Assembly (NCBI RefSeq): GCF_008831545.1
Contig: NZ_CP044523.1
Coordinates: 2,914,001-2,978,000 of the forward strand
Length of the DNA: 64,000 bases
From: Halorussus halophilus
Lineage (GTDB): Archaea > Halobacteriota > Halobacteria > Halobacteriales > Haladaptataceae
Direction of reading: 5' to 3'
Shown here: one piece after another, positions 8,513 to 47,592 of the stretch
How positions within the stretch are numbered: the first letter of the stretch is position 1
Layout of the letters: each line of letters starts with the position of its first letter
Made by a program: the position numbers and the translations under genes
Notes under the pieces: generated by a model
Seen by the model: only the letters and a program-made list of their open reading frames with translations
What the model was told of the DNA's origin: nothing
Database searches by the model: none

Positions 8513-8522
8513 CTGCTCGCAC

Positions 8523-9345: not shown

Positions 9346-9369
9346 CCGCGAAACGACGCACGTGCGGGT

Positions 9370-9849
9370 ATGCAAGTGAAATCGCGCCACCACCTCCGCA
9401 GCGACGAAGTGCGGGAGATAGAGGACGGACTCGCCGAACAACTGGGCGTCGAGATGGACGCCGACACCTACGAACTCGTGGAACTCGAAGACAGCGACTT
9501 CGACCTCGTGCTGGTCGATGGCGAACCGGCAGTGCTGTACGTGGACGACGAACCGTTCCTGACCGTCCACGGCGCGAACGAGTACCCGCCGCAGACGCGC
9601 GTCGTGACTGTGGACGCCGGAGCCGTCTCGTTCGTCAGCGACGGTGCGGACGTGATGCGCCCCGGTATCGTAGAGGCCGACGCGGAAATCGCGTCGGGCG
9701 ACCTCGTCGCAATCGCCGAGGAGTCCCACGGCAAAGTGCTGGCCATCGGGCGCGCGCAGACCGACGGCGACGACATGGTCGGCAACGAGGGCAAAGTCGT
9801 CTCCTCGCTCCACCACGTCGGCGACGAGTTGTACGAGTTCGTGATTTAG
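9370..9849 (+). CDS. PUA domain RNA-binding protein (MCT-1-like)
   Basis: A 159-residue protein. The N-terminal half (VKSRHHLRSDEVREIEDGLA to LVLVDGEPAVLYVDDEPFLT) is the small alpha/beta domain found before archaeal PUA domains. The C-terminal PUA domain runs from about residue 80: VVTVDAGAVSFVSDGADVMR, PGIVEADAEIASGDLVAIAE, and HGKVLAIGRAQ. The 'G-A-D-V-M-R-P-G-I' core is typical. Archaeal relatives resemble eukaryotic MCT-1, a translation-associated factor; a role in ribosome or tRNA binding is inferred, not shown. It is divergent from the small winged-helix gene. Confidence 0.85.
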   Translation: MQVKSRHHLRSDEVREIEDGLAEQLGVEMDADTYELVELEDSDFDLVLVDGEPAVLYVDDEPFLTVHGANEYPPQTRVVTVDAGAVSFVSDGADVMRPGIVEADAEIASGDLVAIAEESHGKVLAIGRAQTDGDDMVGNEGKVVSSLHHVGDELYEFVI

Positions 9850-10214
9850 AGCCACACTGCCACCTTTTCCACTCGGGTGCGCTGAGGGCCGAAGGCGCGC
9901 CGAACGGATACTGCGTTTGCGACACACACCCAAAGAATACTTTTATCATTTCTTCACCATCTTTCTCGTGTATGTCGAACACGGCGTGATGTTCCGACCG
10001 TAGAGTCGCCGACGCAGGCCTCATGCTGGGAGTGGTTCCAGCAGATTCCCGAACGTGGCCAGCGGTGCAACTAGCTTCCATCACGCCGCATGTTCCGACA
10101 CGCAACTCGCAGTTCGAACCGACAGTACAGTTTCGCTGACGCGCAGACGCCTCTCCAAGCACCCCACCGCCGTCGAAGGCAAGACCACTCCGAATCCTCC
10201 CGGAGGCGGTCCCA
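9850..10214. other. intergenic region with an orphan promoter-like box and an imperfect direct repeat
   Basis: ATACTTTTATC at about 9937-9947 precedes an ATG at 9972 by a leaderless distance, but that frame stops after five codons. The sequence CACGGCGTGATGTTCCGAC (9980-9998) recurs as CACGCCGCATGTTCCGAC at 10082-10099. A CTAGCTTCC at 10073 resembles the element termini but the rest does not match. I see no gene. The upstream part of the MFS gene's leader lies here. Confidence 0.4.
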
Positions 10215-11522: not shown

Positions 11523-11557
11523 GGTCGGATGCTTCACTGCCCCGTCCGTTCCGCCGC

Positions 11558-12319
11558 TCACTCTGCGGCGTCCATGTTGTCGTCCTCGTACGCTTCCTCG
11601 TAGCGTTCGACCGCCATCTCGAAGCCCTCCTTGGCGAGTTCGTACGTCTCGCGCAAGTCTTCGATTGGCGTCTCGGTCGCGTCTACTCTGAGGTCGTCGT
11701 AGTACGGTTCCATCTCGCGGTCCTCCGTGGATTCGACGATGAGTGCCGCGCTCTGGACGTGGAGTTCTTCGCGCTTGTCCCCGCCTTCCGCGTGACCCGC
11801 TGCTAGTGCATCGACGAGGCGCTCGGCGAGCGGTGTAGAAGTATCGTCCCGGACGTCTCGCGTCTCCGCACTCGACGTTTTCGCGCCGCGTGGCGGCGCG
11901 CTCTCTTCGTACTCGTCTGCCACGGCTTCGATTACCGACTCGCCGGTCAGGAGGTTGCCCGCGACGGTGTAGCCCTCGCCCTCGACGTGGCCGTACCAGT
12001 CGTGACACTCCTCGCCGGAGAAGGCGAAGGTGCCCTCCGAATCGACGCCGTGGAGTTGCCGCTGGGCCGCGCCGTCGTCGGCGTTGAGCAGGCTCTGGAG
12101 CGCGCCCTCGACGGCCAGTCCGTCGTCCAGATACTCGACGCCCTTCTCTCCGAGTTAGACGTTGACGAGGCTCTGGGTGGCGACTGCACCGTTCTCGCTG
12201 ACGAACGGACAGAGCGTGCCGACGCCGGGCAGGCGGGTCGTGACGGCCACGCCGAATCTGGTCTGGTCGTCTCCGTCCTCGCTTTCGTACTCTTCTCGCA
12301 CACAGATGCTGAAGGTCAT
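11558..12319 (-). pseudogene. DUF1028 family gene interrupted by an in-frame TAA
   Basis: Reading from the ATG at 12319, the frame gives a normal DUF1028 N-terminus (MTFSICVREEYES, FGVAVTTRLPGVGTLCPFVS, GAVATQSLVNV). A TAA at 12155-12157 follows directly. The same frame then continues without any shift: LGEKGVEYLDDGLAVEGALQ, HGVDSEGTFAFSGEECHDWY, GHVEGEGYTVAGNLLTGES, to the stop at 11558. DUF1028 proteins resemble Ntn-hydrolases of unknown substrate. The expected residue at the stop is Glu, so one GAA to TAA change explains it. A GTG at 11923 could start only a C-terminal remnant of 121 residues. It may be a pseudogene, a sequencing error, or a recoded stop. Confidence 0.8.
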
Positions 12320-12472
12320 GCGAGAGGCGACGAGCGTAGCGCGCAAAAAGGTCGGCTTCGCGGCGACGCGTGCAAGTAGAGCAGACGAGACGACGCGAAG
12401 TCGTCTCGATAGAAGCTTCTCAACGAAATCTTCTCGACGGAAGCTTCTCGTCTGGAAGCCGTCTGACGTAAG

Positions 12473-12480
12473 AACTATAC
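12473..12480 (+). promoter_or_regulatory. TATA-like box of sepF
   Basis: AACTATAC, 24-31 bases before the ATG at 12504. The preceding 100 bases hold several GAAGCTTCTC/ GAGAAGCTTC-type short palindromes. Confidence 0.45.
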
Positions 12481-12503
12481 CGCTCCAACTGGCCCATATC
12501 TCT

Positions 12504-12860
12504 ATGGGCTTCATGAGCAAAATCCTCGGGGAACGGGACTCGCGCAACGCCGAGGACTACGTCGAACTCAATCTCGACGACTTCGATACGGCGACCAGCG
12601 ACGCCGCGATGCAGGTCCACATCGCCGAGATTCAGGGCCAGCAAGACGTCATCGCTATCAAAGACGCCATCTACGACGGCGACCTCGTCGTCGCTGACAT
12701 CACCCGCCTGCGCACCGAGGACACCACCGTAGAGCGCATCACCAACGAACTCCAGCAGGTCGCCCGGGAAGTAGACGGCGACATCGTCCAGAAGGGCGAC
12801 GACCAAATTCTGGTCACCCCGACGGGCATCAACGTCAGTCGAGAGAAGTTGGGCCGGTAA
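12504..12860 (+). CDS. sepF: cell division protein SepF (archaeal)
   Basis: A 118-residue protein. Archaeal SepF is the membrane anchor of the FtsZ ring. The N-terminus MGFMSKILGERDSRN is the short membrane-targeting amphipathic helix. It is followed by EDYVELNLDDFDTATSDA and then the globular domain (HIAEIQGQQDVIAIKDAIYD, GDLVVADITRLRTEDTTVE, ITNELQQVAREVDGDIVQKG, DDQILVTPTGINVSREKLG). Length and order match haloarchaeal SepF. The start at 12504 is supported by the TATA-like box and by the family's usual MG.MSKILG beginning. No ftsZ is in the window. Confidence 0.93.
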   Translation: MGFMSKILGERDSRNAEDYVELNLDDFDTATSDAAMQVHIAEIQGQQDVIAIKDAIYDGDLVVADITRLRTEDTTVERITNELQQVAREVDGDIVQKGDDQILVTPTGINVSREKLGR

Positions 12861-12982
12861 CGTCCTTCGCTCTCTTTTCTCCGTCTTTTGTTCCGAGCTA
12901 GAGAGACGTCGCTGGTTGGAAGAAAAGCGCGGCAGTCGCAAAAACAACAGAACGAAAGAGTCGAGAGTCCCAGAAAGTCGCT

Positions 12983-13378
12983 CTACGAGACGCCGTCGGG
13001 CGTCTCGGCGTCGTCTTCGACAGTGCGCTTCATGGAGTCACGGCGGGCTTTCGCGTCGCGGCCGGTCGCGTCGAGCAGGAACTCGTTTTTCTTGCTGACC
13101 GCGTCGGCGGCGGCGTCTGCGTTACCTTCCGCGATGACGTCCTCGGCGGGGCGCTCCTCGAAGTGGACCGCGAGTTTGTCTTTCTTGCCACTGTACTCTG
13201 CAGTTCCGGCGATAATACGCTCGAAGACGGGGTTGTCGGGGTCTTCGACGACGTAGAGTTCGTGGCCGTTGTGTTCCTCGGTGCCGCTAATCTCGCCGAA
13301 GAAGTCCTCGATTTTGGCCTTCATGTCCGGGATTCGGTCCTCCAAGTGCTCGCCTCGTCGCATCTTGTACTCTTTCAT
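12983..13378 (-). CDS. DUF5611-like conserved archaeal protein
   Basis: A 131-residue cytoplasmic protein that begins MKEYKMRRGEHLEDRIPDMK. It has an alpha/beta composition (KIEDFFGEISGTEEHNGHEL, YVVEDPDNPVFERIIAGTAE, KKDKLAVHFEERPAEDVIA) and a charged C-terminal tail. It resembles a small euryarchaeal family of unknown function, which I remember as DUF5611. No catalytic motif is evident. A GTATAC box at 13405-13410 is 27-32 bases upstream of the ATG. It lies downstream of the zinc-ribbon gene on the same strand, 68 bases away. Confidence 0.75.
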   Translation of the reverse strand: MKEYKMRRGEHLEDRIPDMKAKIEDFFGEISGTEEHNGHELYVVEDPDNPVFERIIAGTAEYSGKKDKLAVHFEERPAEDVIAEGNADAAADAVSKKNEFLLDATGRDAKARRDSMKRTVEDDAETPDGVS

Positions 13379-13404
13379 GGTAACGGTCTGTTGGATGGGG
13401 GGAT

Positions 13405-13410
13405 GTATAC
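13405..13410 (-). promoter_or_regulatory. TATA-like box of the DUF5611-like gene
   Basis: The palindromic GTATAC lies 27-32 bases before the ATG at 13378, the spacing for a leaderless transcript. Confidence 0.4.
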
Positions 13411-13446
13411 CCTTTTCGCGTCTCGATTACTCTTGAATGTACCGCC

Positions 13447-14403
13447 CTATTCCTTTGCGATGTAGCCCCGACGGCACTCCGGGCAGATGTCGCCCGCGCG
13501 CATCGAGGAGTTTGCAACCTCCTTTCGGAAGTTGCACTCCGGACAGACGAACTCCGCATCGACGTCGTCGTCCTCGGACGGACTCGCCGCCGACGGTGCG
13601 CTCGCGCCCGCGGTGAACCCGGAGGAGAGTTCGCGGTGGCCGCCGCTCGAACTGCGCTGGGCACTGTTCTGTGCTTGAAGATTGTCGCCCTCCGCGTTGA
13701 CGAACTCTGCTTCGTCGTCGGAAGACGACTCAGGGGCGGATTCGGGAGTCAAGCCGCCACCAAACTGCACGTCCGCGTCCTCGCCGTCCGACGGTTCGGC
13801 GTCGTAGCCGTCGTCCTCGCGGCCGACCTCCGGCCACGCACCTGCTTGGCTCTCCTCTGAAGAGGAGCGGTTCGCGTCCTTGTCGGGCCACTGACCGGGT
13901 TGTCGGTCATCGTCGGCTTCGTCGTCATCGTCGTCTTCGAGGATGACGCCGTCGTCCTCCTCCGCGGACTGGGGTGCCTCGAACTCGCTGTCCATAGACG
14001 GAGCGGTACTGGAGGGAGTGCCAGTGGCTTGCCCGTCTGCACCCGCACCAGTGTCCGACTGGCCGCCCATGGTCACGTCGGATTGGCCACCGGCGGGACT
14101 GCCGCCGCTGGGAGCGTTGCCGCTCGGATTACCCACATTCGGGCTACCACCGTTTCCGCCACCGGCACTCGGGCTACCGGTGCTTCCGGCACCCCCACTG
14201 GACGCTCCAGTGTCAGCCGACTGCGTTGGGGTCTCTAAGGCGGTGACTTCCTTGTTCTCCGAGACGACGCTGCGCTCGCCACAGCGGTCGCACTCTTTGA
14301 ACTCCCTGACCGTGACTACCACTTCCGTTCCCTCTTCCTCGCGCTCGCGTTCGATTTCTGCGTCCCCGTAGTTGTGACCGAGGAGCGAACACCTGAGACT
14401 CAT
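13447..14403 (-). CDS. haloarchaeal zinc-ribbon protein with long acidic/Gly-Ser linker (DUF7093-like)
   Basis: A 318-residue protein with two small metal-binding ends and a long disordered middle. The N-terminus (MSLRCSLLGHNYGD, then FKECDRCGERSVVSENKEV) holds a C/H plus CxxC site. The C-terminus (FVCPECNFRKEVANSSMRAG, DICPECRRGYIAKE) is a complete four-cysteine zinc ribbon, residues ~286-315. Between them lies a Gly/Ser/Pro tract (residues ~60-125) and a strongly acidic tract with runs of Asp. This layout suggests a protein- or nucleic-acid-interaction adaptor. The function is unknown. The upstream neighbour is the broken HTH gene on the same strand. Confidence 0.75.
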   Translation of the reverse strand: MSLRCSLLGHNYGDAEIEREREEEGTEVVVTVREFKECDRCGERSVVSENKEVTALETPTQSADTGASSGGAGSTGSPSAGGGNGGSPNVGNPSGNAPSGGSPAGGQSDVTMGGQSDTGAGADGQATGTPSSTAPSMDSEFEAPQSAEEDDGVILEDDDDDEADDDRQPGQWPDKDANRSSSEESQAGAWPEVGREDDGYDAEPSDGEDADVQFGGGLTPESAPESSSDDEAEFVNAEGDNLQAQNSAQRSSSGGHRELSSGFTAGASAPSAASPSEDDDVDAEFVCPECNFRKEVANSSMRAGDICPECRRGYIAKE

Positions 14404-14511
14404 TCGTGCGTTCTCTTAGGTTCAAGTATGGTAAGGGTTGTGCTTGATTGTATGACGCTCGGCGCACGGCAGAATGGAGAGGATGATAGAGAAAACAGGA
14501 GGGTAATAGAA

Positions 14512-14742
14512 CTACCCGTCGAGCGCGTGGAGTCGCCGGAGTCGTCGCTTCCCGGAGGGCGTCAGTCGGTACCGGCCAGCACCGACCGGGCGGAGGAGGC
14601 CCTTGCGCTGGAGGTCGAAACACCGCTGGTCCACGACGACTGGCCCGGCGTCGAGGGCGTCTTCGAGCGCGCCGACGTGGGAGGTACGTTCTCAGTCTAT
14701 CGTTTCGAGGATGGTCTTCTCGGTGGTTTGGGTGGAACTCAC
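14512..14742 (-). pseudogene. small winged-helix gene interrupted by an in-frame TGA
   Basis: From a GTG at 14742 the frame reads VSSTQTTEKTILETID, hits TGA at 14692-14694, and then continues in the same frame: ERTSHVGALEDALDAGPVVV, DQRCFDLQRKGLLRPVGAGR, YRLTPSGKRRLRRLHALDG, stop at 14512. The second part is a convincing winged-helix recognition unit with wing (GRYRLTPSGKRRL). A single CGA to TGA change would explain the break. The acidic/basic composition and codon choice after the TGA are those of a real haloarchaeal gene. It is too short to show as an uninterrupted open frame. The start codon is a guess. Confidence 0.55.
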
Positions 14743-14904
14743 GTGTCTGTACACCTCGTTTTTTCGTTGGGACGCGGGGGATAAAACTCGAACTAGGAGC
14801 GATATAGTTCGGTACGAATCTATATTGACTGTGGCCCGATTGACGAACCCCTGTCGGGAGACGTGGTGAAATCACACCCACTCATCGACAGGAACCCATC
14901 GACG

Positions 14905-15411
14905 TCAGTAGGTTTCGGTCAGTCCGTCGCTCTGGAAACTGTTCGTCGTGTAGTCGATTAGCCCCACCATCTCACGAACGGTGATGAAGTTGGTCGTCTC
15001 GTTCGACCCTTCCGGAAGATGGTATCTGACGGTCTCTTCGGTGGACTCTGCGACGATAGCTTTGTGGATGCCCAGATGCTCGTCCAGTAATTCTCGACGG
15101 ATTTTGTTCAGGTCCTCGTTCGTTTCGTCGTACTTGTCTTGGAGAATCGCCTGCCGAATCTCGTTTTGAGCGTCCTTCGACACGTCTCTCGGCCGGTACG
15201 CGACCGGCAATCCGAAGTCGTTTGCGACGAACACTATCAGGTCGCCAGCGACTGCGTCGCTTAGTCGTCGAACGTCGCTACGGACTGCATCGGTGTCGAA
15301 GAACTCGACGTCGTCTCTTCGACCACGGAGTCTGGTTATCTCGGCACGGAGGAGGCCGTACTTCTCGTTCAAATCGTCCGTTTCGGCGTATTCCTCGGCC
15401 CAGTCTGTCAT
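14905..15411 (-). CDS. conserved hypothetical protein
   Basis: A 168-residue protein I do not recognise. It starts MTDWAEEYAETDDLNEKYGL with a likely helical, coiled-coil-like N-terminus (LLRAEITRLRGRRDDVEFF). It continues with VAGDLIVFVANDFGLPVAYR, DEHLGIHKAIVAESTEETV and VREMVGLIDYTTNSF. No signal peptide, membrane helix or metal motif is visible. Its GC content is slightly lower than that of the neighbours. It lies upstream of the broken HTH gene on the same strand. Confidence 0.6.
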   Translation of the reverse strand: MTDWAEEYAETDDLNEKYGLLRAEITRLRGRRDDVEFFDTDAVRSDVRRLSDAVAGDLIVFVANDFGLPVAYRPRDVSKDAQNEIRQAILQDKYDETNEDLNKIRRELLDEHLGIHKAIVAESTEETVRYHLPEGSNETTNFITVREMVGLIDYTTNSFQSDGLTETY

Positions 15412-15752
15412 TGGGCAAACTTCCCCACCGGAATAGAAAAGATTCCGGGTACACTGTCACTCAGTCTCAACCGATTCGTGGTTCGCCTCTTTCGTTTACT
15501 GTCAGCTACTGAGCCGGTGAGTTTTCGGACCTTCGACCGCGAGAAATTGCACGTAGCCTCGCAGAGATGTTGAACTCGACCAGCCGTTCCTGCTCGCTTG
15601 CTCGCAGGTTCATCGCTCGCCTTTTCGAGACGCGAAGCGTCTCGTCCGCGGGCCTGCGACTGGTCTGCTCAAATCCCCGCTCACGAAAGAATTTGCGCTC
15701 GTAGAAGTAGTGAGCGCACGAGGCGCTCACAGTGTAACTCGCGCAAAAATCA
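15412..15752. other. intergenic region downstream of tRNA-Ala with hairpins
   Basis: No gene is supported. A palindrome CGAGACGC-GAA-GCGTCTCG lies near 15626-15644, and TGAGCGC-ACGAG-GCGCTCA near 15710-15728. The 12-mer TCAAATCCCCGC at 15669-15680 is an inverted copy of the tRNA-Ala T-arm segment (15760-15771). These could fold into transcript ends for the tRNA, or be a relic of an integration site. Confidence 0.4.
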
Positions 15753-15824
15753 TGGACTCGCGGGGATTTGAACCCCGGGCCTCTTCCTTGCGAAGGAAGC
15801 GATCTGCCGCTGATCTACGAGCCC
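15753..15824 (-). tRNA. tRNA-Ala (anticodon CGC)
   Basis: A 72-base cloverleaf without intron. The acceptor arms are GGGCTCG (15824-15818) and CGAGTCC (15760-15754), with discriminator A. They include the G3:U70 wobble that is the alanine identity element. The anticodon stem-loop is CTTCC-TTCGCAA-GGAAG, giving anticodon CGC, which reads GCG. The T arm is CGGGG-TTCAAAT-CCCCG. CCA is not encoded. It lies 10 bases downstream of the rhomboid stop codon region's opposite end, on the same strand as the rhomboid gene. Confidence 0.96.
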
Positions 15825-15834
15825 GCAACTGCGA

Positions 15835-16464
15835 TTAACCGTATCGTTCCCACTTATTAGAAGGTTGTGTTTCAGCACGTGTGCGCAAGAGGTGAACACG
15901 GCCCGCGAGTGCGCCGAGGACGAAGCCAGTGAAGTGCGCGACGAGTGCGACGCCCGGTGACGCCGTGAGCAACGTCACGCCCATCGCCAACACGAACAGC
16001 ACGACCAGTTGCCCGCGGGCACCGAGTGGCAGGCGCTCTAACAGCGTGTCCGCGACGACGTTGCTCGCGAGTAGGTAGCCGAACAGGCCGAACACAGCAC
16101 CGCTGGCTCCGAGGACGCCCGGCCGCGTGGTTCCCAAGGTGACGAGGCTGGTGAACACGACCTGCGAGACGCCAGCGGCGATTCCGACCGTGGCGAAGAA
16201 GCCGTGATACCGCCACTTCGTCGTCGTGCGCTCGACCGGAATGCCGACCAGCACGAGGACGAGCGCGTTCGAGAAGAGGTGGCCGACGCTACCGTGGGCA
16301 TAGACACTCAACACGAGCGAGAGCGGGTTGTTCCCGACTGGTGCGTGGAGGACGAACAACTGCGTGGCGAGCCCCTGAGCGACCAGTCCGATGAGCGACT
16401 GGACGGCGAACACGACGCAGAACACCGCCAACGTCTGGACGGTCGGACTCTTGCGGAAGTTCAC
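15835..16464 (-). CDS. rhomboid family intramembrane serine protease
   Basis: A 209-residue membrane protein with about six hydrophobic helices. Rhomboids cleave transmembrane substrates inside the bilayer. The catalytic Ser is in LGASGAVFG (Ser ~121) and the His in VAHFTGFVLG (His ~177). The oxyanion-side motif HGSVGHLFSNALVL (residues ~57-70) is present. Length and helix number fit a minimal archaeal rhomboid. The gene directly precedes tRNA-Ala on the same strand with ten bases between. Substrates are unknown. Confidence 0.88.
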   Translation of the reverse strand: MNFRKSPTVQTLAVFCVVFAVQSLIGLVAQGLATQLFVLHAPVGNNPLSLVLSVYAHGSVGHLFSNALVLVLVGIPVERTTTKWRYHGFFATVGIAAGVSQVVFTSLVTLGTTRPGVLGASGAVFGLFGYLLASNVVADTLLERLPLGARGQLVVLFVLAMGVTLLTASPGVALVAHFTGFVLGALAGRVHLLRTRAETQPSNKWERYG

Positions 16465-36186: not shown

Positions 36187-38541
36187 GTGACTTCCGCCGA
36201 TTCGTGGCGCGAGGTGTTCGGCCACGACGACCCCTACGACGAGCAGGTAGACGGCATCGAGACAGCCGTCGAGACCGCCGAAGACGGTGGGTTCACCGTC
36301 CTCGAAGGAGCCTGCGGGACCGGCAAGACGATGCTCGCGCTGACCGCGGGCATCCACCTCGTTCGGGACCCCGACAGCCAATTCGAGCGAGTGTTCGTCC
36401 TGACCAGTGTCAAACAGCAGTTGCGCCAGTTCGAAGAAGACCTCCAGACCATCAACGAAAATTTGCCCGACAACTGGGACCCCGTCACCGCCCAGACGCT
36501 CGTCGGGAAGGCCGACGTGTGTCCGTACAACCGCGAGAATGCGGGCGGCATCGACGACGAGAACGTCTACAGCCGCTGTGAGACCCTACGCGAGGATACC
36601 CGCGCGATAACTGGGGAGGGTGGCTCCACGACGGCTCAGAATCTCGTTTCGCGCGCTCGAAGCCAGCAAACCGGCTTGGCCGATAGCCGCAATCAGGGCC
36701 GGGCGGCTGCCTCCTACCTCGAAACAGCCGACGAACCGACGCCCTACCCACCGGAGATGCCGGAGTACGACGACCTCGAATACTGCCCGTTCTACGCGCA
36801 GTTCCTCGAAGACGTGCCCGAAGACGGCGACCCCATCGAAGCCGTGCCGTTCGACTTCGACAGCATGGGACTCATCGACTCTGAGGAACTGGTTTCCTTG
36901 TCCGTTCAGCACGGCACCTGCCCGCACTCGATGATGGGCGCGCTACTGCCCCACGTCGAGGTCGTCGTCGGAAATTATTATCACGCGTTCGACCCCGTGA
37001 CGACGGCCACCTTCACGGGTGCGTTGCTGGACGACGAGACGTTCGTCGTCTGCGACGAGGCGCACATGCTGGAACCGCGCGTGCGCGACTTGGTGAGCGA
37101 CGCGGTGGCCGACCAGACGCTTCGAGACGCAGAATCGGAACTCAGTCGAGTTATCCAACCGCTCCAATTCGACAAGGAGGGCAAGGAGAGCCACACCACC
37201 GCCGACGCCAATCTGGTGCGCGGCGAACTGCAAGACAGCGACGTGAACCTCTCGGAAATCGAGGAGACTCGCGAGTTCATCCGGGACTTGCGCGAAGAGT
37301 TGGACCGCCGAGTCACGGCCCACCTCGAACGCGAGCATCGCGGCTGGAAGTCGAACCTGACCGACTTGCCGGACGACGAGATTCCACTGCGACCCCCGAC
37401 GCAACCACAGCAGGACGAGATCAGCGAGTGGGCCGAAGACCGAGGCTACCACGATGGGGTCTGGGTGCGCGCCGAGGCAGTCGGCGCGGTGGTGTCTCGA
37501 ATCCTGAACGAGGCCGAAGACGAGGAGAAAGAGCGCGCCTGCCTCCCCGCTGGTCGCGTCCTCGGCGAGTGGTATCGCAACGACCACGAGCACTACTTCC
37601 GGGAAATCGTCTTGGAGCGGACGTGGAACGACATGGAGCCGAACAAGTCGTGGCGACGCGCATACAACGCCCGCCTCGCCATGCAGAACTGCGTGCCGAG
37701 CGACGCCATCGGCGAGCAACTCGGGGAGTTCGGCGGTGGCGTCCTGATGAGCGCGACGCTCGAACCGCTCGACGTGTTCGAGGAGGTGACGGGGCTGAAC
37801 CATCTTCAGGAGAACGACCGCCGACCAGTCGTGGAGCGAACCTACGGCCTGAACTTCCCCGAAGAGAACCGCGAGAGTTTCGCGGTCGATGCCCCCAAAT
37901 TCACCTACGACAACCGTGGCCAGACGGACGAGGAGACCCAGACAAGACAGGTGTACGCCGCCGCGCTCCGCGACGTCGCTCAGTCGTCGCCCGGCAACGT
38001 CCTCGTCGGGATGCCCAACTACGCCGAGGCGAAGTGGGCCGCCGAGACGCTGCGCGAGAACTCCAGTATCGAAAAGCCAGTTCTGCTGGACGAGTCGAGT
38101 GCCGACGACGTGACCGAGGACCTGAAAGACGAGTTCTTCGGCGGCCAGTCGAAAGTGCTGGTGACGAGTCTGCGCGGCACGCTGACCGAGGGCGTGGACT
38201 ACGAGGGCGACAAACTTCACGCGGCAGTCGTCTGTGGCGTCCCCATCATCAACACCGCGAGTCCCCGGACGAAGGCAGTCAGAACTGCCTACGACCGAGC
38301 GTTCGGCGACGGATTCGAGTACGCCCTGACCGTGCCCGCGGTGCGAAAGGCCAGACAGGCGCTCGGCCGGGTGATTCGGGGCTGGGACGAAGTCGGCGTG
38401 CGAGTGTTGGTGGACAAACGCTACGCGCGCGAGTCGTGGAACAGCGTGCGGGACTTTTTCCCCGACCACGAACGCGAGGAGTTCCAACCGGTGAGTCCGG
38501 ACATGCTGTCGCTCGGGTTGGAGCGGTTCTGGCGCGACTGA
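36187..38541 (+). CDS. XPD/Rad3-like ATP-dependent DNA helicase
   Basis: A 784-residue superfamily 2 helicase. Walker A is GACGTGKTML (residues ~41-50) and the DEAH box is VVCDEAHMLE (~288-297). Motifs GGVLMSATLEPL, LVTSLRGTLTEGVDY and RQALGRVIRGWDEVGVRVLV follow. Cysteines at ~112 (DVCPY), 131 (YSRCE), 200 (EYCPF) and 245 (GTCPH) sit where XPD carries its 4Fe-4S cluster, though spacing is wide and includes an insert. Start: GTG at 36187 is preferred (MTSADSWREVFGHDDPYDEQ); GTG 36181 and ATG 36055 are alternatives with a non-conserved extension. It may act in repair or transcription-linked unwinding. Confidence 0.88.
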   Translation: MTSADSWREVFGHDDPYDEQVDGIETAVETAEDGGFTVLEGACGTGKTMLALTAGIHLVRDPDSQFERVFVLTSVKQQLRQFEEDLQTINENLPDNWDPVTAQTLVGKADVCPYNRENAGGIDDENVYSRCETLREDTRAITGEGGSTTAQNLVSRARSQQTGLADSRNQGRAAASYLETADEPTPYPPEMPEYDDLEYCPFYAQFLEDVPEDGDPIEAVPFDFDSMGLIDSEELVSLSVQHGTCPHSMMGALLPHVEVVVGNYYHAFDPVTTATFTGALLDDETFVVCDEAHMLEPRVRDLVSDAVADQTLRDAESELSRVIQPLQFDKEGKESHTTADANLVRGELQDSDVNLSEIEETREFIRDLREELDRRVTAHLEREHRGWKSNLTDLPDDEIPLRPPTQPQQDEISEWAEDRGYHDGVWVRAEAVGAVVSRILNEAEDEEKERACLPAGRVLGEWYRNDHEHYFREIVLERTWNDMEPNKSWRRAYNARLAMQNCVPSDAIGEQLGEFGGGVLMSATLEPLDVFEEVTGLNHLQENDRRPVVERTYGLNFPEENRESFAVDAPKFTYDNRGQTDEETQTRQVYAAALRDVAQSSPGNVLVGMPNYAEAKWAAETLRENSSIEKPVLLDESSADDVTEDLKDEFFGGQSKVLVTSLRGTLTEGVDYEGDKLHAAVVCGVPIINTASPRTKAVRTAYDRAFGDGFEYALTVPAVRKARQALGRVIRGWDEVGVRVLVDKRYARESWNSVRDFFPDHEREEFQPVSPDMLSLGLERFWRD

Positions 38542-38733: not shown

Positions 38734-40449
38734 ATGCAACGAACAACGAAACTATCGGTACTGCTAGTAACGACCCTCCTCCTCGTCTCGTCGGCCTCGC
38801 TCGGCGGGGCGGTCCTCGCCGGGTCGTCGATGGCGGCGAACGCCAGTGATGACGCGTGGCAGAGCGACCGCGCCGACAGTGCGCGAACCGGCGCGACGAA
38901 CGCCGCCGGAACGAGCGTGGAGTACGCAGACACCGCGTGGGACACAGAGGGAGAAGGCGAGCCCACCGGCGTGGCCGTCGCAGACGGCACCGCCTACGTC
39001 GGGTACGAAACCGAACACCAAACCGCCGTGAGTAAGGGCGCAGTCGTCGCTCAAAACGCGACGACTGGCGCGGAGGCGTGGAACCGAACTGACCTCTCGG
39101 TCGCGGTCGGTACGCCCGCGGTCTCCGGTGACACGGTGTACGTCTCCACGGAGACGATCACCAGTCCGCCGAGCTACGATGTTGGGAAAGCCGGACTCTT
39201 CGCACTCGACGCCGACACCGGTGAGACGAAGTGGCGCTTCGAGGGAACCACCGACTGGGAGACCGCGCCCGTCCTCACCGACGGAGCGGTGTACGGCATC
39301 TCGAACGGGACGCTCTACGCACTCGACACGGAGACCGGTGAGAAACGCTGGAGCGTGGAGACTTCGGCGGGAGTCAATGGCTACACCGGCTACGGGGGCC
39401 TCGCAGTCACCGACGGAACGGTCTACGTGACCGGAGCAGACGGAACCGTGACGGCCTACTCGACCAGCGACGGGAGCCAACAGTGGAACGTGTCAGTCCC
39501 TGCCGCGTCGGACATGTCTGGTCCTGCAGTCTCGGAGGGGGCACTCTACGTCACCGCACAACCGAACGTCGTCTACCGGTTGTCGGCGGACGACGGGGGC
39601 GTCGAGTGGCGGCGGCCCGTGCGAGCGAAGTTCGAGGACAGCGAACCAAACTGGATTAGCGAACCTGCGGTCACCGACGGAACGGTGTACGTCACCAGCG
39701 ACGACCACTACGAAGACGGCGACGACGAACGCGTCGGCGCGGTTCACGCGCTGGACGTGAAGACGGGCACCGAAGACTGGCAGTTCCGAACTGCCGCGCG
39801 ACTCACGAGCGCGCCAACGGTCGGTGAGGACGCGGTGTACGTGGGCGGCGACTACGCAACCGTGGGCGACTACAGCGCGAGCTACCGCGGCGAGGAACCG
39901 ACCAAGTACGGGATTCACGCCAGTGCCTCCCATACGGTCGTCTACTCGCTCGACAGAGCGGACGGAAGCCAGCGGTGGAGTTACGCCACCAAGAGCGGAA
40001 GGTGGTACGAGGACCCGTTCGTCACGGCACCCGTGAACGGTCGCGTCTACGTCGCCGAGAGTGACGACCGAGCGTTGTCTTCCGGTGGGAAAGTCTACAG
40101 CCTGAACGGGAGCGAGACGAAACCGAGCGACGAGCATCAGGTCGCAGACGACGAACCGCGGACGCGAGACTCCGAACCGACGGCGACGATTCGGACCGCG
40201 CCGAAGAACGCCGAAGAGCGAGAACTTGCGGGCAACTCGACGGTGAAACTACGGGCGAACGCGAGCGACGAGGACGACGAGATAGCCACCTACGAGTGGG
40301 ACCTCGACGGTGACGGCACCTTCGAGACCACTGGCAAGCGTGCGGAAGTGACCGTCCCGGCGTGCGACAGCGTCGAAGTCACACTGCGCGTCACCAGTAG
40401 CGACGGCGACACAGCGACGGAGACGATTACGCTCGACGCCGGAGCGTAA
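38734..40449 (+). CDS. secreted PQQ-like beta-propeller protein with C-terminal PKD-like domain (paralogue 1)
   Basis: A 571-residue exported protein. A Sec-type signal (MQRTTKLSVLLVTTLLLV, no twin arginine) is followed by PQQ-like propeller blades: LFALDADTGETKWRFEGTT, GTLYALDTETGEKRWSVE, GTVTAYSTSDGSQQWNVS, AVHALDVKTGTEDWQFRT, VVYSLDRADGSQRWSY. The end is a PKD-like module with YEWDLDGDGTFETTG. PQQ-cofactor binding cannot be inferred: BamB-like scaffolds have the same repeats. It is paralogous to the gene at 41669 and separated from it by the double-cupredoxin gene. TATA-like GGCTAAAT is about 25 bases upstream. Confidence 0.85.
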   Translation: MQRTTKLSVLLVTTLLLVSSASLGGAVLAGSSMAANASDDAWQSDRADSARTGATNAAGTSVEYADTAWDTEGEGEPTGVAVADGTAYVGYETEHQTAVSKGAVVAQNATTGAEAWNRTDLSVAVGTPAVSGDTVYVSTETITSPPSYDVGKAGLFALDADTGETKWRFEGTTDWETAPVLTDGAVYGISNGTLYALDTETGEKRWSVETSAGVNGYTGYGGLAVTDGTVYVTGADGTVTAYSTSDGSQQWNVSVPAASDMSGPAVSEGALYVTAQPNVVYRLSADDGGVEWRRPVRAKFEDSEPNWISEPAVTDGTVYVTSDDHYEDGDDERVGAVHALDVKTGTEDWQFRTAARLTSAPTVGEDAVYVGGDYATVGDYSASYRGEEPTKYGIHASASHTVVYSLDRADGSQRWSYATKSGRWYEDPFVTAPVNGRVYVAESDDRALSSGGKVYSLNGSETKPSDEHQVADDEPRTRDSEPTATIRTAPKNAEERELAGNSTVKLRANASDEDDEIATYEWDLDGDGTFETTGKRAEVTVPACDSVEVTLRVTSSDGDTATETITLDAGA

Positions 40450-40604
40450 GCGAGCGACTTCGAAGACATCGGAATGCTTCGAGGACCATCGAACGCTTCG
40501 ACGGTCCTCGAATCGACCGGCGTCGCATCCTTTTTCACCGCTACGTCGAACGGCGTAGAGAGTGTCCGTCCAATTTATCCGCTCAGCAGTTGTAACGCGC
40601 CTCG

Positions 40605-41435
40605 ATGGGGGAAAATCAACACGCGCGGCTGTCGCGGCGGGCCGTCCTCGCGGCCGCCGCGACGACCGGGGCACTCGCAGGAATCGGGGGCGTACGGGGA
40701 GGCGGAAAATTCGGAAGGACCCAGACGGCCGGAATCGCGCTGGACGCGCGGGTTTCGGGGTGGGTCGGACAGTCGCCGCAGTCGGTTGCGGGGGCGACAA
40801 ATCCGACGCTCTCGCTCGAACCCGGCGTGACGTACCGCGTGACGTGGACCAACGCCGACGGAATTCCGCACAGTTTCGTCGTCGAAGACGCCGACGAGAA
40901 CTCGCTCGTCGAGACGGACGTACTGTCCGAGCAGGGCGTGACCCAAACCGTCGAGTTCGAAGCGACGCCTGCGATGGCCGAGTACTATTGTGCAGTGCAT
41001 CCCCAGACGATGCGAGGGACGGTGGCCGTCGAGTCAGGTGGTGCGACCGAAACGGCCACGGAGTCCGAAACGACCGTCGAGAGCGGTCGAGTGCCAGTTC
41101 TGGAAGCGGAGACCATCGTTCTCGGCGGACGGGTCGGTTACTGGCTCGGACTCGCGCCGAGCGCCATTCAGGGCCGCCCGAATCCACCGCTTCGACTTCG
41201 AGCGGGCCAAGAGTACGAACTCGTCTGGCTGAACCTAGACGGCGTCGAACACGACTTCCACGTGGTGAACGCGAGCGGCGAGGACCTCGCCGATACCAGC
41301 AGTCGGGACGACGTGGGCGAGACCCACGAAACGTCGTTCGAGGCGACGCCGGCGATGGCAGAGTACCTCTGTGCGTTCCACCCGCAGTCGATGCGGGGCG
41401 CGGTAGAGGTCGTGAGCGAGTCGGAAGTCGAGTGA
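40605..41435 (+). CDS. Tat-exported protein with two cupredoxin domains
   Basis: A 276-residue protein. The Tat signal LSRRAVLAAAATTGALAG (residues ~9-26) is followed by two homologous copper domains. Domain 1 has His ~89 (IPHSFVV) and CAVHPQTM (Cys ~129, His ~132, Met ~136). Domain 2 has His ~216 (VEHDFHVV) and CAFHPQSM (Cys ~256, His ~259, Met ~263). All four type-1 copper ligands are present in each, so it should carry two blue copper centres. A Thr/Glu-rich linker joins them. It is an extracellular electron carrier, placed between two beta-propeller genes on the same strand. TATA-like CAATTTATC is about 28 bases upstream. Confidence 0.88.
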   Translation: MGENQHARLSRRAVLAAAATTGALAGIGGVRGGGKFGRTQTAGIALDARVSGWVGQSPQSVAGATNPTLSLEPGVTYRVTWTNADGIPHSFVVEDADENSLVETDVLSEQGVTQTVEFEATPAMAEYYCAVHPQTMRGTVAVESGGATETATESETTVESGRVPVLEAETIVLGGRVGYWLGLAPSAIQGRPNPPLRLRAGQEYELVWLNLDGVEHDFHVVNASGEDLADTSSRDDVGETHETSFEATPAMAEYLCAFHPQSMRGAVEVVSESEVE

Positions 41436-41668
41436 GCGCAGACGACGTGACGACCTCTCGACCAGCGCGATTAGTCACTGCTTTGTCGAGTGGTTGCCCC
41501 CCGAATAAATCAGCTGTCCGGTCCTTAGCCGCCGAATAGTAAACCGTCTAACCATACTTCGTGCAGTCGTCAGACCGGCCACGCGGTCGGTCGAGACGAA
41601 TCGACTGCCGAACGGTATCGGGAGTTCGAACGATATACAAGACAACTAAATGATAGTTGGAATCGAAA

Positions 41669-43438
41669 ATGGATAGGCGAACGAAGTTACTGAGCGTCTT
41701 CCTCACCGGACTCCTCCTCGTCTCCGGGGCGACACTCGGTGGGGCAGTGATGGGAGCACAACCGACAGCAGCGAACGCCAGCAGCGACGCGTGGGAGAGC
41801 GACCGCGCCGACGACGGTCGCACCGGCGCGACGAACGCCGCCGGGCCGAGCGCGGAGTACGCCGGGACGGCGTGGCACTCCGACGCACTCGACGGCGAAC
41901 CGACCGGCGTCTCGGTCGCGGACGGAACCGCGTACGTCGGTATCGAGATGAAGTATGACGTAGCAATCAGCAAAGGCAAAGTTGCGGCCCGAGACGCGAA
42001 AACTGGCGAACTGAAGTGGTCCCGAAACGAGATTCCGAAGGTCGCTGGAACGCCAGCGGTCGCCGGAGATACGGTCTACGTCGCCACGGAAGCGTACACC
42101 GCGGGCGGCTACGAACAACGGAACGACAGCATCGAACGCGGCTTCTACGCGTTCGACGCCGACACCGGTGAGACGAAGTGGAAGTTCACCGGTGCAGTCG
42201 ATTGGGACCGTGGCATCTCGCCGGTCGTCGTCGGCGACACGGTGTACGCCATCTCGAACGACACGGTGTACGCGCTCGACGCGGAGACGGGCGAGAAACT
42301 CCGAACTATCTCGCCACCGACGGAGGGCGGGACTACCGACGACGGCGTGACGACCTCTCGGTACGTCAAGGGATTCGCCGTCGCTGACGGCACACTCTAC
42401 GTCGAAGTCGGACAGAGCGTGACCGATTACAGCACCGACGAGTACGACCCAGAGTATTCGACGGACGTCGTCGCGTACGACGCGGCGAGCGGCGACAAAG
42501 CGTGGACCACTACGATGAACGGCGCGTCCGAAGGAATGGCGGCCACCGACTCGGGCGTCTACGTGACGCTCCAACCGAATACGGTCGTGAAGTTCTCGAC
42601 TGACGGCAACCAGCGGTGGAAGCAGAAGGTTACTGCGGACTTCCAAGACAGCAAGTCCGACTGGGTGAGCGCCCCGGCAGTAGACAACGGAACGGTCTAC
42701 GTCGCCACAGACGACCACAGCGAAGAGGGCGACGACGAACGCGTCGGCGCGGTCCACGCACTCGACGCGATGAGCGGTGCCGAAGACTGGCAGTTCCAGA
42801 CGTCGGCACTCCTCACGACCGCACCATCGGTCGGCGAGGACTCAGTGTACGTCAGCGGCGACTACCCCAAACAGGACGGCGACTACGTGGAGGACAACCC
42901 GCAAGGGGCAACGCAGACGTACATGTCCCGAACAGTCGTCTACTCGCTCGACCGAATGGATGGGGCCGAACAGTGGAGCTACGCGACCCACGACGGAACG
43001 ACCGAGATGGACCCGTTTGCCACGGCACCCGTGGGCGACCACGTGTACGTCGCGGACGAGGACCAGTACAGCACCGACGGCAACCTCTACGTGCTGAACG
43101 GCAGTGAGACGCAACCACCGGTAGAACATCGCCTCGCTCCGGACGAACCGCGAGACAGAGACTACGGTCCTGCGTTCGAACTCAAGACGACGCCGAAAAA
43201 CGCCGAGGACAAAGCACTCGACGGCAACTCCACGGTGCAACTCCGTGTAAACTCGACGAACGAAGAGACGATAGAGAGCGTCGAGTGGGACCTCGACGGT
43301 GACGGCGACTACGAAGTGACGGGCAAGACCGCCGAAGTGACGATGCCCGCTTGTGGAAGCATCGAGGTGACAGTGCGAGTCACCGACGACGACGGCGACA
43401 CGATAGTTCGGGACTACGAGTTCTCGACGCTCGACTAA
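41669..43438 (+). CDS. secreted PQQ-like beta-propeller protein with C-terminal PKD-like domain (paralogue 2)
   Basis: A 589-residue exported protein, clearly homologous to the one at 38734. It has the same signal style (MDRRTKLLSVFLTGLLLVSG), the same propeller blades (GFYAFDADTGETKWKFTG, VYALDAETGEKLRTI, VVAYDAASGDKAWTT, AVHALDAMSGAEDWQFQT, VVYSLDRMDGAEQWSYAT) and the same C-terminal WDLDGDGDYEVTG. An ATG at 41669 is preferred over a TTG at 41657. The upstream AATAGTAAAC at about 41535 is shared with paralogue 1. It ends three bases from the convergent ABC ATPase gene. Confidence 0.85.
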   Translation: MDRRTKLLSVFLTGLLLVSGATLGGAVMGAQPTAANASSDAWESDRADDGRTGATNAAGPSAEYAGTAWHSDALDGEPTGVSVADGTAYVGIEMKYDVAISKGKVAARDAKTGELKWSRNEIPKVAGTPAVAGDTVYVATEAYTAGGYEQRNDSIERGFYAFDADTGETKWKFTGAVDWDRGISPVVVGDTVYAISNDTVYALDAETGEKLRTISPPTEGGTTDDGVTTSRYVKGFAVADGTLYVEVGQSVTDYSTDEYDPEYSTDVVAYDAASGDKAWTTTMNGASEGMAATDSGVYVTLQPNTVVKFSTDGNQRWKQKVTADFQDSKSDWVSAPAVDNGTVYVATDDHSEEGDDERVGAVHALDAMSGAEDWQFQTSALLTTAPSVGEDSVYVSGDYPKQDGDYVEDNPQGATQTYMSRTVVYSLDRMDGAEQWSYATHDGTTEMDPFATAPVGDHVYVADEDQYSTDGNLYVLNGSETQPPVEHRLAPDEPRDRDYGPAFELKTTPKNAEDKALDGNSTVQLRVNSTNEETIESVEWDLDGDGDYEVTGKTAEVTMPACGSIEVTVRVTDDDGDTIVRDYEFSTLD

Positions 43439-43441
43439 CCG

Positions 43442-44506
43442 TCAGTCGTCTGCCGTCTTCGAAGACTTTTTTCGACCGCCGTACTCGACGACGTGCGCGG
43501 ATTCCGGAGCGAAACCGACAGTCACGCACGACGAATCTGGCCGCTCGGACACGCGCAGAGTCACGTCGCGCCCCGCCCAGTCGAGATGCACGCGAAACGA
43601 CTCGCCGAGGAACTCGACAGTTTCGACGGTAGCGTCGAAGGCGTTGGCGGTTCCGTCGCCGCCGAGTTCCAGTGCTTCCGGGCGGACGCAGAAGACGACC
43701 GATTCGCCCTCGCTGGCATCCACGCCCGCAACGTCGAAGACAGTGTCGCCAACGGCGACACCGTCTGCCCAGACTTCGCCCTCGAAGACGTTGTTGTCGC
43801 CGAGGAACTCCGCGACGAATCTGGTTTCGGGGTGGCGATACACCTCCTCTGGCTTGCCGACCTGCTCGACGTGGCCGTCGTTCATGACGGCCACGCGGTC
43901 GCTGACCGCCAGCGCCTCCTCTTGGTCGTGGGTGACGTAGACAGTCGTAATCCCGAGTTCCGATTGAATCCGCTTGACCTGCGTTCGCAGGCTCTGGCGC
44001 AGTCGCGCGTCGAGCGCGCTCATCGGTTCGTCCAGCAGGAGTACGTCGGGTCCGGGCGCGAGCGCCCGCGCCAGCGCGACGCGCTGTTGCTGGCCACCGG
44101 AGAGTTCGTCGGGAGCGCGCTCGCCGAAGCCAGCGAGGTCCACCAGTTCGAGCAGGTCGGCGACTCGCTGGTCTTTTGACTGCCCGCCGGGCGTCCCACG
44201 GAACCGCAGTCCGTAGGCGACGTTCTCCGCGACGGTCATGTGCGGAAAGAGCGCGTAGTTCTGGAAGACGATTCCCACGTCTCGGTTCTCGGGGGCGGCC
44301 CCGGACATCTCGCGGTCGGCGAAGTACACCTCGCCCGAAGTCAGGGTCTCGAAGCCAGCGATTGCTCGTAGAGTCGTAGTCTTCCCACAGCCAGACGGCC
44401 CGACGAGCGTGAAGAACTCGCCGTCCTCGACTCGCAGACTCACGTCCGAGAGCGCGGTGACGCCGTCGAACGCCTTCGAGACCTCGGACAGTTCGAGGTC
44501 AACCAC
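43442..44506 (-). CDS. ABC transporter ATP-binding protein, thiamine/iron/spermidine type
   Basis: A 354-residue ATPase. Walker A GPSGCGKTT (~residues 37-45), Q-loop IVFQNYALFPHMTV, signature LSGGQQQRVALARAL, Walker B VLLLDEPMSALDARL and switch THDQEEA are intact. A C-terminal TOBE-like domain (VFCVRPEALELGG, ETVEFLGESFRVHLDWAG) follows. It overlaps the permease gene by eight bases, and a substrate-binding protein lies further upstream, so the three form one operon. In the family, the substrate is set by the binding protein. Confidence 0.9.
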   Translation of the reverse strand: MVDLELSEVSKAFDGVTALSDVSLRVEDGEFFTLVGPSGCGKTTTLRAIAGFETLTSGEVYFADREMSGAAPENRDVGIVFQNYALFPHMTVAENVAYGLRFRGTPGGQSKDQRVADLLELVDLAGFGERAPDELSGGQQQRVALARALAPGPDVLLLDEPMSALDARLRQSLRTQVKRIQSELGITTVYVTHDQEEALAVSDRVAVMNDGHVEQVGKPEEVYRHPETRFVAEFLGDNNVFEGEVWADGVAVGDTVFDVAGVDASEGESVVFCVRPEALELGGDGTANAFDATVETVEFLGESFRVHLDWAGRDVTLRVSERPDSSCVTVGFAPESAHVVEYGGRKKSSKTADD

Positions 44507-46355
44507 GCTCGAATCGACCTCCCAGTCGGTCGATGACGACGAAGCTCAGACTCGTCACCGCGAGCAGGACCGTTCCCATCGCAGTAGCGGGGCCCAACGT
44601 CCGGTTGCCGATGTAGCGTTCGACGGCGACTGGCATCGTGTAGCTCGTACTTCCCGTGGCCAAAATCACTGTCGAGTCGAACTCACCGATGCTGATTGCG
44701 AAGGCGAACGCCGCGCCCGCCGCGACGCCCGACGCCACGAGCGGGAGTTCCACGTCGAGCAGTGCCCGAACGCGAGACGCACCGAGCGCCCGCGAGGATT
44801 CGACCATCGAGCGGTCGATGCCCGAGAGCGGCGGCGCGACGTTGCGCACGACGAACGGATACGCGGCGACGGCGTGGGCGGCGACGATAGCGACCGGGCC
44901 GCCGATTTGCAATCGCGTGCCGAACAGTTCGACGCCGAAGACCAGCCCTCGCAACATCCCCAGTCCGACGACGACGCCGCTGACCGCGAGGGGGGCCATC
45001 GCCGCGGCGTCGGCCACCTTGCTCCCCCGGCCGCCGCGCGTGGTGAGTACTGCAATCGTGACGCCCATCGGGAGCGCCACGAGGAGTGCAGCGACGCCGA
45101 AGAGAAGCGAGTTCTGCACGGCGACGCCGGGTTTCGTCTGGAACGAGGCTCCGGTCGCTTGGCGTTCGAGCAGGAACTGGTAGTACTGAAACGTCAAGCC
45201 GTTCGGACCGGTGATACTCTCGACCACCATGCTGGCGAGTGGGCCGACGAAGACGACTGCGACGACGACTGCGTAGACGAGGACGCCCGCGCGTTCGGCG
45301 AGCGCGCTCGGTGTCCACTCACCGGGAACCAGTCGCTTCCTCGGCGGCGGATTCACGGCGCGATTGCTCCCCGCCTGTCGAGCCTCGTAGCGGAGGTACG
45401 CGTAGGTCAGCACCAGCGAGAGGACGGTCTCGATGACTGCGAGAACTGCGGCTTCGGAATAGTCCAAATCCTGCACCAGCGAGTAGACCCAGACCTCTAC
45501 GGTCGCGAGTTCGAACCCGCCGAGCGCGAGGACGATGGGGAACGACATGAATGTGAAGACGAAAGTGAGGAGCGCGCCGGTCAGAACTGCGGGGAGGAGT
45601 TGCGGCGCGAGTACGTCACGGAAGGCCCGAATCGGATTCGCGCCGAGGCTTCGCGCCGTCTCGACCATCCGGGCGTCCACGCCCTCCCACGCCGCCGTCG
45701 TGACGCGTGCCACCAGCGGCGCGTTGTAGAAGGCGTGGGCGACGATTATCGCTTCGAGCGTGAACAGCAGGTTCACTTGGCCGAGACCCAAGAATCCGAG
45801 CAGGTCGTTCAGCGGGCCGTTCGTCCCGAAGAAGGCGACGAAGCCGATGGCGACCATGATGGAGGGGAGGACGAACGGCAGGATAGTCAGCGACCGAATC
45901 GTCCGGCGGCCCCAGAACTCGTAGCGCGAGAGGACGTACGCGCCGGGCAAGCCGAGCGCGACGCTGGCAATCGTGGAGAGAAACGCCTGAAACGCGGTGA
46001 ATCCGAACAGGCCGAGCGGTGTGCTGGCGGCGACGTCGCCCAGTTCAGAGAAGTTTCCACCAAGAAGTGGCGCGAGGACTCCGAAGTAGAACGAGTCGGT
46101 GAGGATTTCGCGGACGGTACCGAGGCTGAACTGGCCGCCGACGCGCACGGCTTCGACGAAGACGGTCAGGACGGGGTAGTAGAAGAGGACCGCCAAGACG
46201 AGCGCAGTTGCGACTCCCAGAATGGCGAGCGCGTGGCGTTCGAACCACTCGAGTCCTCGTTTCGGCGTCGCGGACTCTCGGCGGCCAGCAGTCTGGCCGC
46301 CGTCGGTGCGGTGGTCGGACTTCCGACTTCCGCCATCTCGCTCGTCTCGGCTCAC
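44499..46355 (-). CDS. ABC transporter permease with two fused halves (ThiP/FbpB-like)
   Basis: A 618-residue membrane protein with about 12 helices in two homologous halves. Each half has an EAA loop for contact with the ATPase: ETARSLGANPIRAFRDVLAP and ESSRALGASRVRALLDVELP. This fused two-domain form is typical of ThiP and FbpB permeases. The N-terminus is cytoplasmic and polar (MSRDERDGGSRKSDHRTDG). It lies between the binding-protein and ATPase genes of its operon. An open frame of similar length on the other strand is an artefact. Confidence 0.9.
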   Translation of the reverse strand: MSRDERDGGSRKSDHRTDGGQTAGRRESATPKRGLEWFERHALAILGVATALVLAVLFYYPVLTVFVEAVRVGGQFSLGTVREILTDSFYFGVLAPLLGGNFSELGDVAASTPLGLFGFTAFQAFLSTIASVALGLPGAYVLSRYEFWGRRTIRSLTILPFVLPSIMVAIGFVAFFGTNGPLNDLLGFLGLGQVNLLFTLEAIIVAHAFYNAPLVARVTTAAWEGVDARMVETARSLGANPIRAFRDVLAPQLLPAVLTGALLTFVFTFMSFPIVLALGGFELATVEVWVYSLVQDLDYSEAAVLAVIETVLSLVLTYAYLRYEARQAGSNRAVNPPPRKRLVPGEWTPSALAERAGVLVYAVVVAVVFVGPLASMVVESITGPNGLTFQYYQFLLERQATGASFQTKPGVAVQNSLLFGVAALLVALPMGVTIAVLTTRGGRGSKVADAAAMAPLAVSGVVVGLGMLRGLVFGVELFGTRLQIGGPVAIVAAHAVAAYPFVVRNVAPPLSGIDRSMVESSRALGASRVRALLDVELPLVASGVAAGAAFAFAISIGEFDSTVILATGSTSYTMPVAVERYIGNRTLGPATAMGTVLLAVTSLSFVVIDRLGGRFERG

Positions 46356-46428
46356 GACTCGTCCTCCTCGCTCGCGTTTTCGAGACTCTCGGTCGCGTCG
46401 CTCACTCTGGTCTCGCTCCCGCTCTCGC

Positions 46429-47592
46429 TTACTTGCTCGCTATCTCTCGTGCCCACGAATCGACCCATTCGTCCACGTTCCCCTTGAGTTCGTCGTACGT
46501 GAACGTGACCGGATTCTTCGGCACCTTCGCGTACTTCTCGAACTCCGCGGAGAGCTTCGCCCAGTCGGTCGCGGGGAACTGGACGTTCCGCGTGGCGATT
46601 TTACCCTGTGCTTCCGCCGAGAGCATGAAGTCCATGAACGCCTCGGCGAGTTCGGGGTTGTCGGTGTTCGCGAACTTCGCCATGCCCTCGGGGTTGGCGT
46701 AGCCCTGCTCGTTCAGGAAGCCGACTTGGTGCTTGCTCATGTCCTGATCGTAGCGGTTGGCGTACACTTGGTCGGTGGAGTAGGAGACGACCATCGGCGC
46801 TTCGCCGTTCTCGTAGGCAGTGTAGGCGTCGTCCCACGAGCCGAGGATTTTCACGTCGTTGTTCTTGAGCTGTTTCCAGTAGTCGAGGTACTGGTCTTCC
46901 CCGAGCGTGTGAACCGTCCAGAGCAGGAAGGCGCGGCCAGTGACGGAAGTCTGGGCGTTCTGCACGATGAGTTTGCCCGAGTAAGGGTCTTTCGTGAGGT
47001 CGTCGAACGTCGTCGGAGCCGTCTCGACCTTGTTCTTGTCGTAGACGAGGCTGATGTACCCCGTGTCGTACGGTACCGCGCGGTTCTTCGGGTCGAACTT
47101 GAGACTGTCCTTGACGTGCCCGTAGTTCGAAAGCGAGTCGCCCGTCGAGGCGAACAGTTCCTTGTTCCCAAGTTTGTCGTCGATTCGGATGAGATGGTCC
47201 GTGTTGACCCCGACGTAGAGGTCGGCGTCGATGTCCACACCCTGCGCGCGTCGCTGGATGTAGTAGTTCATCTCGTTCTCGGGCGTCTTCCACTCGACGG
47301 TCACGTCGGGGTGGCGCTTCTCGAAGGTCTTCTTGAGCCACGGTCCCGGCGAGGAACTTGGCGCGTCTACGAACGAACTGTAGGTCGCGACCTGCAGCGT
47401 CCCGCTGAGACTCTGCTCGGTCTGCGTCTCGGTCCCCGAGTCGGTCGTCGTCGCACTACTCGTTTCCGTGTCCGTCCCACCGCTCTCGGTCGTTTCCGTG
47501 GTCGTCGCGTCGTCACCACTGCCGCCGATACAGCCAGCGAGTCCGACGACGGTGCCGGTGACGCCGCTTTTAACGAAGGTTCGTCGTTTCAT
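46429..47592 (-). CDS. substrate-binding lipoprotein, thiamine-type (ThiB-like)
   Basis: A 387-residue exported binding protein. It starts MKRRTFVKSGVTGTVVGLAG with lipobox LAGCIGG, so it is probably a Tat-exported lipoprotein. A Thr/Ser-rich linker follows (residues ~28-60). The mature part shows SGTLQVATYSSFVDAPSSS, VEWKTPENEMNYYIQRRAQG, DADLYVGVNTDHLIRID, DTGYISLVYDKN and PMVVSYSTDQVYANR, which resemble ThiB. A thiamine substrate is likely but an iron-type ligand cannot be excluded. The promoter TAATTAAGT is 25-33 bases upstream. No TPP riboswitch was recognised. Confidence 0.75.
   Translation of the reverse strand: MKRRTFVKSGVTGTVVGLAGCIGGSGDDATTTETTESGGTDTETSSATTTDSGTETQTEQSLSGTLQVATYSSFVDAPSSSPGPWLKKTFEKRHPDVTVEWKTPENEMNYYIQRRAQGVDIDADLYVGVNTDHLIRIDDKLGNKELFASTGDSLSNYGHVKDSLKFDPKNRAVPYDTGYISLVYDKNKVETAPTTFDDLTKDPYSGKLIVQNAQTSVTGRAFLLWTVHTLGEDQYLDYWKQLKNNDVKILGSWDDAYTAYENGEAPMVVSYSTDQVYANRYDQDMSKHQVGFLNEQGYANPEGMAKFANTDNPELAEAFMDFMLSAEAQGKIATRNVQFPATDWAKLSAEFEKYAKVPKNPVTFTYDELKGNVDEWVDSWAREIASK

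Follow-up and report, generated by a model that had tools for sequence, protein, structure and literature searches.

Relatives of the two gene families

In haloarchaea the one-electron carriers are copper proteins, which stand in for cytochrome c; halocyanin is the accepted one, and electron flow in these organisms has so far been traced in part (PMC8305020). The double cupredoxin described here resembles halocyanin (TIGR03102; Natronomonas pharaonis halocyanin) in being an exported haloarchaeal type-1 cupredoxin with His/Cys/His/Met ligands; it differs in its two domains, in its ligand loop (C-x2-H-P-x2-M), and in carrying no lipid-anchor cysteine, and it scores 51.5 bits with the Halocyanin model against a cut-off of 93.8. 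A second group of relatives is formed by the cupredoxin-fused haloarchaeal PQQ-type dehydrogenases (GSDH and PQQ-ADH), whose cupredoxin lineage is that of our domain 1, and two of which are encoded by the window genome itself: L002 (G000:C1:1001774-1002232), with a GSDH-type sugar dehydrogenase behind an N-terminal cupredoxin domain, and L004 (G000:C1:2220886-2221185), with a cupredoxin domain N-terminal to a PQQ alcohol-dehydrogenase-type propeller that has no vicinal Cys pair. In these fusions the dehydrogenase-type domain sits on the same chain, whereas the locus in the window has no dehydrogenase.

A third relative is a gene pair of two Haladaptatus genomes (L104 and L105, in G023 and G024). 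There, a quinoprotein alcohol dehydrogenase gene has immediately behind it the gene of a cupredoxin protein in which two copper sites are complete and a third domain is devoid of ligands; like our locus, the pair has a cupredoxin of several domains just after a propeller. In L105 this propeller retains the CC, G-G-E and W-D-Y-D motifs, and the PQQ alcohol dehydrogenase model matches it at 1.5e-116; neither is true of the window propellers. In L104 the quinoprotein gene is split over two ORF calls, and both loci have an uncharacterised gene of about 318 aa ahead of the pair. For the propellers the nearest described proteins are BamB, other PQQ_2 propellers and the "empty quinoproteins" (TIGR04528), all sharing a propeller of W-containing repeats in which no cofactor residues were found. 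Unlike BamB, ours are secreted archaeal proteins with a PKD-like domain and no lipobox, far under the BamB equivalog cut-off (93.8 bits against 285.2). The open-access literature, outside which most subscription journals lie, returned no description of a propeller/double cupredoxin arrangement.

Organization of the locus

The window is the whole 64,000-nucleotide stretch of DNA that was analysed (G000:C1:2914001-2978000, from a genome of 4.45 Mb). A sequence-only reading had placed in it a cluster of three genes facing the same way, two secreted propellers bracketing an exported protein that carries two copper sites; an ORF check found all three frames open and in the same direction. The cluster as an observation is confirmed, and its interpretation is partly supported as a whole. 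The features are:

36214..38541, + strand: DinG/Rad3-type helicase, left edge of the variable site, outside the system
38734..40449, + strand: propeller 1, 571 aa, with Sec signal peptide, PQQ_2/BamB-like beta-propeller and PKD-like C-terminal domain
40475..40545, + strand: probable terminator in the propeller 1/cupredoxin gap, a hairpin followed by TTTTT (fold -25.7 kcal/mol, z -3.15)
40570..40604, + strand: probable promoter of the cupredoxin gene's own, with a conserved ATTTATC about 31 bases 5' of the ATG
40605..41435, + strand: Tat-exported double cupredoxin, 276 aa, with ligands H89/C129/H132/M136 in domain 1 and H216/C256/H259/M263 in domain 2
41669..43438, + strand: propeller 2, 589 aa, a paralogue of propeller 1 (52% identical) with a like domain layout
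43442..47592, - strand: thiamine-type ABC transporter operon (ATPase, permease, TIGR01254 substrate-binding protein), right edge of the site, outside the system

The locus probably consists of a double cupredoxin of two lineages, of the haloarchaeal electron-carrier sort, and adjoining, duplicated, BamB-like secreted propellers. In the functional reading that we prefer, and to which we give about an even chance of being right, the locus centres on the cupredoxin, a carrier of the halocyanin kind that forms a two-site relay, while the propellers are secreted scaffold or binding modules without a cofactor.

In comparison with the nearest relative of the window, dN/dS is about 0.13 for propeller 1 and about 0.15 for the cupredoxin; both are therefore under purifying selection, and are genes rather than chance ORFs. 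A plasmid collection gave no match. The intergenic region separating propeller 1 from the cupredoxin shows about 91% identity to its counterpart in another Halorussus genome (G013), the stem of the hairpin before the T5 run is kept in the nearest relative, and a GAATAGT block is common to the upstream regions of the three Halorussus propellers; taken with the ATTTATC element, these signals suggest that the genes form separate transcription units.

The earlier description of the propellers as exported paralogues holds, since they align end to end and both begin with a Sec-type signal peptide. The tree joins propeller 1 to the propeller of G013 and leaves propeller 2 outside both (100/100), so that the duplication predates the split of the window and G013, yet lies inside the Halorussus lineage; propeller 2 was then lost in G013. 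A tree test rejected a topology that groups propeller 2 by itself with the site propellers of Haladaptatus, as their only orthologue (p 2e-5).

Conservation of the helicase/ABC site

The site between the helicase and the ABC operon was tracked across the family. Seventeen Halorussus genomes have the helicase, and the site contains neither gene kind in 15 of them and both in the other two, the window genome and G013; the ABC operon adjoins the helicase in 14 of the 15 gene-less genomes, G016 being the exception. The order in G013 is propeller, double cupredoxin, and then a third, single cupredoxin. In Haladaptatus a single-domain cupredoxin directly follows the helicase in all eight testable genomes (G026 ends at a contig edge at the site), and the propeller is intact in G019 and G025, frameshifted and truncated in G027, and reduced to a PKD fragment in G020; in a third genus (G018) the cupredoxin stands alone. 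A site propeller thus lies beside a cupredoxin in only five genomes, one of them with a broken gene, and as a fragment in a sixth, and among the genomes examined no site propeller was seen without a cupredoxin.

The proposed check on gene order in other haloarchaea accordingly gave a divided answer: the propeller/cupredoxin pair recurs at the same site in a second genus, but most genomes have no intact propeller, and the window alone showed the bracketed order propeller-cupredoxin-propeller. As the cupredoxin persists in most genomes without an intact propeller, we regard it as the site's core gene, with the propeller as a dispensable, often-lost companion.

Recurrence of the pair at one site in two genera makes a direct functional link between propeller and cupredoxin possible. 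Against such a link one may argue that the gap between helicase and ABC operon is a convergent site that tolerates insertions and takes up genes independently, its occupants being neighbours by chance and shared site ancestry: other Halorussus species carry unrelated genes or nothing there, none of the propeller relatives inspected away from the site has a cupredoxin neighbour, two Haladaptatus genomes have a frameshifted or decayed propeller, and the cupredoxin has promoter-like sequence of its own. An all-or-none distribution in Halorussus (both gene kinds in 2 genomes, neither in 15) and the same pair at the same site in Haladaptatus speak against mere coincidence, and we consider the absence of any link rather unlikely, if a serious competitor. 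Less probable still is a reading in which the chimeric two-site relay docks on the secreted, cofactor-less propellers and is organised by them at the cell surface.

The unrelated genes at the site in other Halorussus species are chemoreceptor-like or encode a methyltransferase. A gene of about 330 aa occurs there in L114, L116, L117, L119, L121 and L124, and the one tested, that of L119, matches chemoreceptors in their signalling part. Shortly beyond the ABC operon, two Halorussus species carry a different, distantly related propeller gene (L117:7589-9466 and L119:1320-3224).

The double cupredoxin: copper sites, origin and proposed role

Pfam Copper-bind (PF00127) matches two stretches of the protein (6e-11, 43 bits against a cut-off of 21.2). 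The two complete type-1 ligand sets reported earlier are present and were correctly numbered; both are kept in the close orthologue, and that of domain 2 is invariant in all site-resident relatives. The N-terminus carries the twin-arginine motif SRRAVLAA and scores just under the cut-off of the NCBIfam Tat model (14.6 against 16.7). From its Tat-type N-terminus, Copper-bind match and conserved ligands, the protein thus appears to be what the sequence-only reading took it for, an exported protein of the electron-carrier type with two copper sites; its structure model is of low confidence (pLDDT 54).

A tree of 25 cupredoxin domains places domain 2 among the site-resident cupredoxins and domain 1 among domains associated with dehydrogenases (split support 100/97), the companions of domain 1 being fused to GSDH-type or PQQ-ADH-type dehydrogenases or adjoining a quinoprotein. 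Forcing both domains of the two orthologues into one clade was rejected at p-AU 0.022 on about 105 columns, a modest rejection. From the split and this test, the double cupredoxin is probably a fusion of two lineages and not the product of an internal duplication. The relatives of domain 1 support the general idea that cupredoxins take electrons from quinoproteins, as they are fused to PQQ-type dehydrogenases.

The likeliest role of the double cupredoxin is that of a two-site extracytoplasmic electron relay, with predicted copper binding and a predicted direction of electron flow. The exported protein would carry single electrons outside the cytoplasm in the manner of halocyanin, and in it the site-native cupredoxin (domain 2) became joined to a domain 1 from the dehydrogenase-fused lineage. 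An extracytoplasmic dehydrogenase would supply domain 1 with electrons, which domain 2 would hand to the carrier or oxidase served by the site's cupredoxin; given the fusion and the dehydrogenase link of domain 1, a relay from dehydrogenase to downstream carrier is the most economical guess. A natural two-site cupredoxin that unites one lineage associated with dehydrogenases and one resident at the site, in a genome that also encodes PQQ-type fusions, offers a testable entry to haloarchaeal electron flow.

One could instead see the protein as a cell-surface copper-binding or copper-storage protein, with the propellers as adhesins, for it is free-standing, exported and devoid of a lipobox, and type-1 sites by themselves are no proof of electron transfer; the conservation of complete ligand sets including the axial Met, and a domain family that is found fused to dehydrogenases, make this quite improbable.

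The propellers: fold and cofactor residues

The favoured relay assigns no electron transfer to the propellers. Both match Pfam PQQ_2 (1.5e-35 and 1.6e-30 for propellers 1 and 2), a BamB-like repeat common to many non-enzymes, and their signal peptides, as read from the sequence, have no lipobox Cys. The PKD-like C-terminal domain of propeller 1 stays slightly below the Pfam cut-offs (25.5 against 27 and 20.7 against 23.5 bits), matches collagenase PKD structures at 1.6e-5, and appears in the AlphaFold2 model (mean pLDDT 77) as a separate beta domain at 483-568. In a Foldseek search with this model the first 29 matches are all BamB, mostly with TM-scores by target of 0.7-0.8 and ahead of any PQQ enzyme; PQQ alcohol dehydrogenases follow as weaker matches.

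A motif scan of propellers 1 and 2 found no vicinal Cys pair, no G-G-E motif with the calcium-site Glu and no W-D-Y-D motif with the catalytic Asp within the propellers, while all three were present in the control, the true Haladaptatus quinoprotein of L105. The single Cys (C544 in propeller 1, C561 in P0003) and the sole W-D-x-D match are both located in the PKD-like domain, outside the propeller. A DWE in propeller 1 is the one partial counterpart, and it reads DWA in the 80% orthologue and is missing from a Haladaptatus site relative. The quinoprotein model TIGR03075 gives propeller 1 55.8 bits against a cut-off of 480 and leaves propeller 2 unmatched, and profile alignment to true quinoproteins yields several competing registers in which the active site has no consistent mapping. 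A PqqC search of the window's own genome gave no match, the control genomes being equally silent.

The sequence-only reading had weighed PQQ dehydrogenases against cell-surface scaffolds. With the PQQ, Ca2+ and catalytic residues missing and BamB first in the fold ranking, we reject the dehydrogenase reading with fair confidence, and the scaffold alternative is the better of the two. More in keeping with these results is a role as cofactor-less scaffold or binding modules that end in a PKD-like domain; taken alone, the propellers are probably binding modules of an ordinary sort, and would serve outside the cell in that capacity and not as electron donors. That they are nevertheless active quinoproteins, or another redox enzyme, feeding the double cupredoxin is very improbable: their PQQ_2/PQQ repeat matches and weaker likeness to PQQ alcohol dehydrogenases, the related cupredoxins fused to or beside quinoproteins, and the adjacency kept in two genera would favour it, but the motifs are absent, the DWE counterpart is not conserved, BamB outranks every PQQ enzyme, and the cupredoxin persists without an intact propeller and is likely transcribed separately.

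Relatives of the propellers (E up to 1e-60) occur in 19 of 392 haloarchaeal genomes. One locus, L096 in G131 (about 5376-16408), has six tandem paralogues of this family with no cupredoxin nearby, most of the six with visible Tat-type N-termini.
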